Assembly: GCA_944325655.1 (NCBI GenBank)
Contig: CALVAW010000007.1
Location: 1 to 57,719 of the forward strand
Source of the DNA: Candidatus Gastranaerophilales bacterium
Lineage (GTDB): Bacteria > Cyanobacteriota > Vampirovibrionia > Gastranaerophilales > Gastranaerophilaceae
Direction: 5' to 3'
DNA: 57,719 nt
Shown: positions 41,016-43,865 of the stretch, one piece after another
Position numbering within the stretch: position 1 is the first letter of the stretch
Layout: every line of letters begins with the position of its first letter
Position numbers and translations under genes: made by a program
The notes under the pieces: model-generated
Told to the model about the DNA's origin: nothing
Databases searched by the model: none
What the model saw: the letters and a program-made list of their open reading frames with translations, nothing else

Positions 41016-42212
41016 ATGTGGGAAAAAGACATTAACATTAACGAAGTTAAAGAAATCAGAACAAGAACCTGCGTTTATTTTGGCATTGGCGCTATTGAAA
41101 AAATTAACGACATAGCAAAAGACCTCAAAAACAAAGGTATAGATAAATTAATAGTTATGTCAGGCAGAAATGCCTATAAAGCAACAGGCGCTTGGGATGT
41201 TGTTGAAAAAGCATTAAAAGAAAACAATATTGAATACGTAAATTATGATAAAGTTACTCCAAACCCAACCAATGAAGCTATTGATGAGGCTGTTAAAATT
41301 GCTCGTGAATTTAACGCAAAAGCAGTTATTGCAATAGGCGGCGGCTCACCGACTGATGCAGGCAAATCAGTTGCAATTTTGCTTGAATATAAAGATAAAA
41401 CCGCAAACGATTTATATGAATTCAAATTTGCACCCACAAAAGCAGTGCCTATCGTAGCAATTAATTTAACCCATGGAACAGGAACAGAAACAAACAGGTT
41501 TGCAGTTGCAACAATTGTAGAAAAAGACTATAAACCGGCAATTGCATATGATTGCATATATCCAATGTATGCAATTGATGATCCTAAATTAATGACTAAG
41601 TTATCGGAAAAACAAACAAAATATGTTTCAATTGACGCCGTTAACCACGTAGTAGAAGCTGCAACAAGCAAAGTAGCTTCTCCATATACCGTATGCCTTG
41701 CGCATGAAGTAATATCAATGGTAGCAAAATATCTTCCAAATGCAATTCAAAATCCAAACGACCTAAATGCAAGATATTTCTTGGCATACGCAGCAATGAT
41801 GGGCGGTGTTTGCTTTGATAACGGTCTGTTACATTATACACATGCACTGGAACATCCGCTATCAGCTGTTAAACATGAACTATCACATGGTTTAGGACTT
41901 GCAATATTGCTTCCTGCAGTAGTTGAAAACATGTGGGAAGCTAAAAAGGAAACACTGACGCACATCTTAAAACCGATGGCACCGTCCATAAAAGACACAA
42001 TGAGCTCAAAAGAAGCCGGCGATTTAGTTTATGAATGGTTAAAATCGGTTGGAGTACCAAATAAATTAAAAAATGAGGGATTTAATGAAAATGATATAGA
42101 AAGATTAACCGAATTGGCATTTACAACCCCTTCATTAGACGGATTACTTTCAATAGCTCCGACTAAAGCAACCAAAGAAGCTGTTCGTGAAATTTATGAA
42201 AAATCACTATAA
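41016..42212 (+). CDS. Iron-containing alcohol dehydrogenase
   Basis: NAD(P)-dependent group III dehydrogenase that reduces an aldehyde or oxidises an alcohol during fermentation. Nucleotide loop AIGGGSPTDAGKSVA (about 109-122); metal-binding region with D and three His across about 210-285 (DAVNHVVEA, HALEHPLSAVKHELSHGLGLA). 398 residues is normal. A strong AAAGGAG ribosome-binding site and a terminator directly after the stop make it a single-gene unit. Confidence 0.93.
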   Translation: MWEKDININEVKEIRTRTCVYFGIGAIEKINDIAKDLKNKGIDKLIVMSGRNAYKATGAWDVVEKALKENNIEYVNYDKVTPNPTNEAIDEAVKIAREFNAKAVIAIGGGSPTDAGKSVAILLEYKDKTANDLYEFKFAPTKAVPIVAINLTHGTGTETNRFAVATIVEKDYKPAIAYDCIYPMYAIDDPKLMTKLSEKQTKYVSIDAVNHVVEAATSKVASPYTVCLAHEVISMVAKYLPNAIQNPNDLNARYFLAYAAMMGGVCFDNGLLHYTHALEHPLSAVKHELSHGLGLAILLPAVVENMWEAKKETLTHILKPMAPSIKDTMSSKEAGDLVYEWLKSVGVPNKLKNEGFNENDIERLTELAFTTPSLDGLLSIAPTKATKEAVREIYEKSL

Positions 42213-42262: not shown

Positions 42263-42286
42263 AAAAAACTGCCTCAAACGAGGCAG
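42263..42286 (-). terminator. Intrinsic terminator of rnpB
   Basis: On the minus strand CTGCCTC-GTTT-GAGGCAG is followed by TTTTTT. It begins right after the 3' end of RNase P RNA. Confidence 0.88.
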
Positions 42287-42877
42287 AAAGTCGGGTATAA
42301 GCCGGATTCTGTAGTAAGATAATTATCTGTCTTGTGCGTTTTTTTATGCAATTTTTGTAAAAACAAAACGGAAATAGCACCTTCTTGCAAATTTAAACTT
42401 GCAGTCAACCGGGGTTTACCTTGCCCGATATCTCACGATATCGGCGGTGGGCTTTTACTCCGCCGTTGCACTTGTACTGACTTGCAGTAACATATTTTCT
42501 GTGGCACTTTCCTCACCCTCACGGGCACTTGGATTTCCCAAGCGGTCTGCTATTTAGACTGTCCGGACTTTCCTCACAACCCTCGCCTTCGCTTGTTAAG
42601 CTTTCGCTAAACTCGCTCGGCTCTTAAGGCGGTACGGTCTTCGCACTTGGCACGAGCTCAAACGCTCCTGCCTGCGTGCTTCGCACACCTTTGCCCTCGC
42701 CTTCGCTTGTTAAGCTTTCGCTAAACTCGCTCGGCTCTTAAGGCGGTACGGTCTTCGCACTTGGCACGAGCTCAAACGCTCCTGCCTGCGTGCTTCGCAC
42801 ACCTTTGCCCTCGCCTTCGCTTGTTAAGCTTTCGCTAAACTCGCTCGGCTCGGGTTGCGCAATTATCAGCCGACTTT
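42287..42877 (-). ncRNA. rnpB: RNase P RNA (rnpB) with repeat-expanded P3 region
   Basis: Catalytic RNA that cuts the 5' leader of pre-tRNA. On the minus strand the 5' AAAGTCGG pairs with the 3' CCGACTTT. All type A landmarks are present: GAGGAAAGTCCGGAC, GAGGAAAGTGCCACAGAAA, GGCAAGGTAAACCCC and ACAGAATCCGGCTTATA. The molecule is about 590 nt against the usual 350-400, because two 114-nt repeat units are inserted in the P3 helix region. Without the extra units it would be about 363 nt. It starts 19 bases after the alcohol dehydrogenase stop on the same strand. A TAAAAT box about 6 bases upstream of the 5' end may be its own promoter. Confidence 0.95.
42580..42851 (-). repeat. 114-bp tandem repeat (2.4 copies) inside rnpB
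   Basis: Units start at 42580, 42694 and 42808. The first two are 114 bp and the third is a partial 44 bp; the copies look identical by eye. The unit is distinctly G+C-rich compared with the surrounding genome and contains small hairpins (GTGC-GAA-GCAC, a GAAA-capped GTTTAGC stem, and GGCAGGAGC with its imperfect complement). I found no other copy in this window. Confidence 0.92.
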
Positions 42878-42896: not shown

Positions 42897-43865
42897 CTAA
42901 AATCTAACCAAAACTTTCAAAGTTCCTTTTTCGGAATTCTTTTTAAAAGCCTCTACAAAATCATCAATATCATATATCTTTTCAACTAAAGGTTTAACAT
43001 TAATTTTACCTTCTTCAAGGAGCCTCAATATTGGAGCAAACTGCCCGCAACGAGAACCTACAACAGTAATCTCGTCAACAACAATAGAAGCAAGATTTAG
43101 CCCTTCTTGCGCAACAATAGTGCTTTTTAAAACCAAAACACCCCTCGGTTTAACCAATGAAGCACTTGTTTCAAAGCCGCCGGTTGAGCCCGTCGCTTCA
43201 ATTACTACATCAAAAGACTTTTTATCTTTTTCCGTTAATTCAGAAAGCATCATTGTTTTGGCACCTATATCTTTAGAAATTTTAAGTTTATTTTCATGTT
43301 TTCCTATATGCACAAAATCTATATTTAAAGCTTTAAATACTAAAGAAATGCACAATCCCAACTTGCCGTCACCTAAAATTGCAACCTTATCATCAGGTTT
43401 AATATGAACTTGTTCAAGTATTTCATAAGCAGCCGCAAGAGGTTCCGTAAATGTTGCCGTTATATCATCTATTTTATCCGAAATTTCAAAAACGTTTTTA
43501 TAAGGCAAAGTAAAATACTCACTAAAACATCCGTCTTTTTTATATATTCCTAATGTCGAACGATTTGGACAATGTCTTTGCAAATTTTTATGACACCAAG
43601 AGCAATCCTCACATGCGCAATTTATCTCGCCCACAACTCTTTTGCCCATAATATTTCTATCGACATTTTTTCCGGCACCTGCAACAACTCCGATAAATTC
43701 ATGTCCTAAAACTCCCTTATAGCCCATATATCCTTTTGTAATTTCATAATCAGTATTACATATACCGACCATAATAGTCTTTATCAAAACCTCATCATCT
43801 CTTAAAACAGGTTTTTGATAATCGCCTGAAAGTTTTAATTCGCCGTCGTACACAAGTGCTTTCAT
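42897..43865 (-). CDS. Zinc-dependent MDR-family alcohol dehydrogenase
   Basis: NAD(P)-linked medium-chain dehydrogenase. Catalytic zinc ligands C36 and the GHE at 54-56; structural zinc Cys C85, C88, C91 and C99 (CACEDCSWCHKNLQRHC); Rossmann fold near 160-200 (VAILGDGKLGLC). 322 residues, slightly short for the family. It is co-transcribed after trxB (8-base gap) and immediately precedes rnpB on the same strand. The substrate is unknown. Confidence 0.92.
   Translation of the reverse strand: MKALVYDGELKLSGDYQKPVLRDDEVLIKTIMVGICNTDYEITKGYMGYKGVLGHEFIGVVAGAGKNVDRNIMGKRVVGEINCACEDCSWCHKNLQRHCPNRSTLGIYKKDGCFSEYFTLPYKNVFEISDKIDDITATFTEPLAAAYEILEQVHIKPDDKVAILGDGKLGLCISLVFKALNIDFVHIGKHENKLKISKDIGAKTMMLSELTEKDKKSFDVVIEATGSTGGFETSASLVKPRGVLVLKSTIVAQEGLNLASIVVDEITVVGSRCGQFAPILRLLEEGKINVKPLVEKIYDIDDFVEAFKKNSEKGTLKVLVRF

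Follow-up and report, generated by a model that had tools for sequence, protein, structure and literature searches.

The window, by which we mean the whole stretch of 57,719 nucleotides that was analysed, carries on its minus strand the gene rnpB, encoding a class A RNase P RNA. Using cmscan, the Rfam model RF00010 scored 160 bits on this strand, above its gathering score of 100 (E 4e-51), the conserved core is in place and P1 and P2 close the molecule, in keeping with the initial annotation of the gene as an rnpB that retains its conserved core. This is the only rnpB copy in the genome. The neighbouring genes at 41016-42212 and 42897-43865 both read, by eye, as alcohol-dehydrogenase-like. Within rnpB, TRF delimits a tandem array at 42580-42851 with a period of 114, 100% matches and 2.4 copies, a copy number that is as assembled, the source genomes being metagenome assemblies; coordinates, period and copy identity are exactly those given by the initial annotation. 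Each 114-bp unit is made up of a module X (~44 bp) and a module Y (~70 bp), arranged in the array as X-Y-X-Y-X. The features are as follows, where R1 is a covariance model built from 16 units.

42283 to 42876, minus strand: rnpB, RNase P RNA class A, ~594 nt including the insert (RF00010; P1 and P2 strands at both ends)
42870 to 42877, minus strand: P1 5' strand AAAGTCGG, pairing with 42287-42294 (7/7 tested pairs in the full-RNA MFE), kept in relatives
42853 to 42858, minus strand: 5' side of the P3 stem, GCAACC (6/6 pairs in the MFE)
42808 to 42851, minus strand: X1 palindrome, first in the RNA (TRF; R1 match 42745-42851)
42738 to 42807, minus strand: Y1 module, a GGTGTG...CCGTACC hairpin (R1)
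42694 to 42737, minus strand: X2 palindrome (TRF; R1 match 42631-42737)
42624 to 42693, minus strand: Y2 module, same sequence as Y1 (TRF, R1)
42580 to 42623, minus strand: X3 palindrome, last partial unit, taken by cmscan as P1-P3 (TRF; weaker R1 match 42566-42623)
42576 to 42581, minus strand: 3' side of the P3 stem, GGTTGT, then conserved GAGGAAAGTCC (sequence and MFE)
42269 to 42286, minus strand: intrinsic terminator of rnpB, CTGCCTCGTTTGAGGCAG and a T-run (consensus match, a terminator-like site)

The RF00010 match puts the 5' boundary of rnpB at 42624, inside the array, because the last X copy can mimic P1-P3. We rejected 42624 as the 5' end, as the array stops short of the conserved 5' strand of P1, and placed the end at ~42876. 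The strands AAGTCGG and GATAATT, located at 42861-42876 past the array, are complementary to CCGACTT (P1) and AATTATC (P2) at the 3' end of rnpB. In the MFE structure of the 596-nt stretch, P1 forms with 7/7 and P3 with 6/6 pairs; P2 forms with 0/7, so that its pairing is one of sequence complementarity only. The AAGTCGGCTGATAATTGCGC 5' end of the gene recurs, slightly changed, in relatives with an empty P3. Since the strands of P1, P2 and P3 enclose the array, it lies, judged by sequence, within the mature RNA and not outside it, and the P3 stem GCAACC...GGTTGT that closes around it confirms P3 as the insertion site named at the outset. The enlarged RNA is presumably transcribed and active.

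Compared with an empty P3, the occupied one is ~260 nt longer; the earlier figure of 228 nt corresponds to two extra units beyond one X. Its G+C content is 58%, compared with 31% for the window, and the insert alone folds far better than shuffles (z -6.7), which agrees with the description of the unit as structured and G+C-rich. In the fold of the whole RNA, 79 pairs are internal to the insert and three cross its nominal edge, which by eye is the P3 junction; with two units omitted, the remainder of the fold looks unchanged. The insert is thus predicted to fold by itself, extending P3.

The unit has further copies in the host genome (G000): on contig C18 (X-Y-X), on C9 (two, both in a 200-bp duplication near tRNA-Pro) and on C13 (X-Y-X-Y-X in rseP). 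R1 finds ten matches in this genome and between 2 and 66 in each of the 26 of 28 genomes of the genus that have any. A scan of 84,980 GTDB species for an exact core pattern returned 40 stretches; their record titles name Gastranaerophilales, Melainabacteria or an uncultured bacterium in every case. As far as searched, the family therefore appears restricted to Gastranaerophilales, gut-dwelling relatives of cyanobacteria, and their near kin. The core pattern has no match in viral contigs (IMG/VR), nor does the 114-bp unit by BLAST in phages or plasmids, and we dropped carriage by phage or plasmid on these grounds. No known RNA family reached its gathering score at the element positions of the 60 loci scanned, and an integron attC site, considered from motifs, was dropped by eye, there being no R'/R'' pair and no cassettes. 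A literature search by title found no work on repeats in Gastranaerophilales. A second G+C-rich repeat motif, CGWAGGAYAATYGAG, is dispersed in 25 of the 28 genus genomes, with 0 matches in the reversed control.

These copies bear on the initial reading of the locus as an expansion within rnpB. That a tandem array sits in rnpB holds; that it is specific to rnpB does not, as the unit belongs to a dispersed genomic repeat family. Because the unit is dispersed both in the genome and across the genus, the array reflects invasion of rnpB by an element and not a tandem expansion peculiar to this gene. An expansion by slippage confined to rnpB, in which an ordinary P3 hairpin became duplicated, would fit the identity of the array copies and the readiness with which recombination forms tandem arrays; the copies outside rnpB largely refute it already, the empty P3 loops of relatives bear no resemblance to the unit, and we consider it very improbable.

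Pairing within the element is conserved. Across 144 distinct units, in an alignment that was fitted to the model and so favours the model's structure, 95.7% of cells are paired, and two-sided changes occur at 22 of 23 pairs, affecting 707 cells where shuffles give 189; structures slid along the alignment are 24-38% paired. The 16-unit alignment, which was not fitted, already has two-sided changes in 15 of the 23 pairs. Outside two invariant G-U pairs, G-U makes up ~1.6% of pairs by our own count, compared with ~11% in the rnpB core. This low share hints that pairing is kept at the DNA level, and template-switch repair of palindromes could be an alternative source of it.

To relate the insert to the history of rnpB, we compared P3 and P12 among relatives. 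Of the 26 resolvable genus species (28 genomes, with G008 and G014 left out), 16 have an occupied P3 and 10 an empty one, a count that mixes script output and reading by eye. Occupied are G000, G001, G003, G007, G009, G010, G011, G015, G017, G018, G019, G020, G024, G025, G026 and G027; empty, with 36-57 nt from P1 to the core, are G002, G004, G005, G006, G012, G013, G016, G021, G022 and G023, where G005 and G006 were read by eye from sequence after the script had misplaced P1. In G011 and G018 rnpB is split over contigs, and in G027 it starts at a contig edge. P3 holds X only in G024 and a reversed element in G026. Two rnpB copies occur in G007 (L014, L037), one with an empty P3 resembling that of G012, possibly by assembly contamination. 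Outside the genus, script-parsed relatives have a P1-core distance of 31-98 nt and no P3 element, the misparsed row of G063 excepted.

P12 is occupied as well. It is long (126-233 nt) in eight genus species (G001, G002, G003, G004, G005, G013, G020 and G025) and 29-49 nt in the remaining parsed ones; outside the genus, P12 lengths cover the relatives parsed by script. A repeat, CGTAGGAYAATYGAG, dispersed in 25 of the 28 genomes and without a match in the reversed control, lies inside P12 of five of the eight (G001, G002, G003, G004 and G020). It is absent from the P12 inserts of G005, G013 and G025, and that of G025 weakly matches the Y part of R1. In two other genera, R1-family elements lie in P12 (G063) or interrupt rnpB in the P12 region (G138; L236, L247 and L248 are the rnpB loci of the two). 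On a tree of RseP, which has several weak inner branches but strong support for the pairs G013/G025 and G005/G006, P3 status changes at least four times and P12 status at least six. Differences between close relatives in whether P3 or P12 is filled, and with what, amount to a natural experiment on the extra RNA that an essential ribozyme can carry.

The content of P3 also turns over: in the host genome, the rnpB unit shares 87% identity with the C18 copy, against 82-83% with its counterpart in rnpB of the sister species G011. The G011 rnpB unit is in turn 92% identical to the G000 rseP unit, and the G011 insert has one element nested in another (L038 1571-1822, by eye). Other pairs are closer at the locus, with 93% identity between the rnpB units of G009 and G019 and 96% between those of G010 and G018. 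Taken together, these identities indicate a P3 insert that has in part been inherited and in part been replaced. A recent or actively homogenised expansion, as first proposed from copy identity, is plausible for the array, whose copies are identical while the sister species' units at the locus have diverged.

The copies elsewhere, at the loci read, are mostly intergenic, and rseP, the RseP/M50 protease gene, is the only gene found with the element in frame (arrays at L012 186-1835 and L083 1279-3009). The RseP insert follows GGYVSFAEPE, in one linker, in G000 and G008 (of PSELSESLASEGE type) and in G010 and G018 (of PESQGASDSEANGSRAE type). The in-frame arrays are lacking in the sister species G011 and G015, and RseP of the remaining species has different linkers without peptides of either type. 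We saw no codon phasing of unit lengths.

Of 69 arrays, 25 start within 20 nt of a sense-strand stop codon, seven of them slightly overlapping the ORF end, and on the other side a convergent stop lies within 20 nt in one; a T-run precedes eight as flagged, L089 being unconvincing. Because these figures count orthologous loci repeatedly and compare two ends that are not quite symmetrical, we give no p-value for the stop-codon counts. The element often starts 3-7 nt past a same-strand stop (L047, L058, L067, L071, L082, L085, L087, L088, L097, L098, L107 and L114). Several copies that lie upstream of tRNA genes have direct repeats of 13-35 bp on either side, comprising the tRNA leader and first nucleotides (23 bp at L110 and L096, 33 bp at L052, 28 bp at L076, 35 bp at L091), and direct repeats of up to 38 bp surround several copies near tRNA genes; at rnpB none were seen. 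An intact tRNA lies downstream of the copies at L110, L096, L117, L052, L076, L062 and L091. It is conceivable, if rather unlikely, that the family prefers transcripts as insertion sites, in sense orientation: RNase P RNA, the 5' part of tRNAs with duplication of the leader, positions after stop codons and after terminator T-runs. If so, it would be a new class of small element with RNA- or transcription-dependent targeting, and RNase P RNA would be a regular home for it.

We consider it highly probable that a small, non-autonomous palindromic repeat landed in P3 and was tolerated as nearly neutral DNA, the array varying later. The insert would be a tandem cluster of a non-autonomous repeat of X and Y hairpins, possibly mobile, as its dispersion and its presence or absence among relatives suggest, and the terminal loop of P3 would be the site that the element entered. 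In RNase P RNA, the P3 and P12 arms are peripheral, and a self-complementary element placed in a hairpin loop would merely lengthen the arm. The peripheral position of P12 has been described (PMC2858038). Because the element folds by itself, with its ends prolonging the P3 stem, we propose that the catalytic core would stay undisturbed and that the insertion would be tolerated as nearly neutral. The direct X repeats would allow unequal recombination or slippage to make the array grow, shrink or be homogenised, with units replaced over time. We looked for a motor without finding support for one: a Y1/RAYT transposase (PF01797) is encoded in 1 of the 28 genus genomes and a reverse transcriptase in 12 of the 28, neither of them in the host genome. 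No clean pair of empty and filled rnpB sites with a target duplication was found. One early insertion followed by turnover and a series of separate insertions are equally likely, because nearly all P3 arrays with readable orientation share it (the exception is G026) and most share the junction GCG(C/T)ACC(C/T)GAG.

Three other accounts were weighed against that of a tolerated palindromic repeat. A long P3 arm might have been co-opted by the RNase P of the genus, for stability, localisation or the binding of protein or substrate, and both the maintained pairing and the fact that no resolvable species of the well-supported G000/G011 and G009/G019 clades has an empty P3 are what one would then expect. 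Against this, ten species of the genus do without the element, sisters differ in content, the element is reversed in G026, and pairing is also kept among copies located for the most part outside rnpB; we find co-option improbable. The insert might instead behave like an rRNA intervening sequence, excised from the transcript to leave RNase P RNA in two pieces joined by P1-P3. Fragmented rRNAs with hairpin-rich inserts of this kind exist, and the present insert resembles theirs in its length, its many hairpins and its place in a peripheral loop; however, the predicted helices are broken every few pairs, which would make them poor substrates for RNase III, and the insert extends the P3 stem, and we hold excision to be quite improbable.

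It is hardly credible that the array, or its copy number, is an artefact of assembly in this metagenome-assembled genome. Many units are located at contig ends, and perfect repeats of 114 bp are difficult for short reads, but the contig continues through both flanks, and independent assemblies of several species have X-Y or X-Y-X arrays at the identical rnpB site. In the Gastranaerophilales genomes analysed, the inserts explain some truncated rnpB matches and contig ends.

The locus is best read as a new family of RPE- or REP-like palindromic repeats tolerated in rnpB, and the closest precedents are RPE, REP elements and the rnpB repeats of cyanobacteria. Among the latter, the STRR in rnpB of heterocystous cyanobacteria, Vioque is said to have found in 1997 heptamers that enlarge P12 and are dispensable in vitro. 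What the two cases share is the presence of repeats in RNase P RNA and a common wider bacterial group; in contrast to the tandem heptamers of STRR, the period here is 114, as the initial annotation stressed in setting the unit apart from short cyanobacterial repeats, and a structured element occupies P3 as well as P12. REP elements are habitually found within 15 nt of a stop codon. Like REP/BIME, the repeats here are G+C-rich and palindromic and form intergenic clusters, often right after stop codons; unlike them, they have a larger, two-hairpin unit, lie inside rnpB and occur in a genus of which 27 of 28 genomes are missing the Y1 transposase. ERIC, Correia, RUP and CIR are non-autonomous, MITE-like repeats of 100-200 bp with stable secondary structure (PMC2229807). 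The present family is likewise small, non-autonomous and stably structured, but it differs in sequence and host, and a terminal inverted repeat with target duplication is not demonstrated here.

RPE are palindromic, ~100-150 nt long and dispersed between genes, with some in frame in conserved protein genes (PMC2229807, PMC4316617), and a passage of PMC2229807 citing Ogata 2002 reports them in the rickettsial genes for tmRNA and RNase P (M1) RNA. The family described here is similar in its dispersed 114-bp unit with covariant hairpins, in its frame-preserving copies in a protein gene (rseP of G000, G008, G010 and G018) and in its copies inside a functional RNA gene (P3 and P12 of rnpB). It differs in host phylum, in that copies are mostly intergenic and in frame in rseP only, without codon phasing, and in its two-module tandem arrays. 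It is set apart from RPE by description and by the core scan, in which the pattern occurs in no Rickettsia-titled record among the 84,980 species. With RPE-like behaviour now seen in a second, unrelated lineage, palindromic repeats would seem to invade the loops of RNase P RNA recurrently and not as an oddity of Rickettsia.
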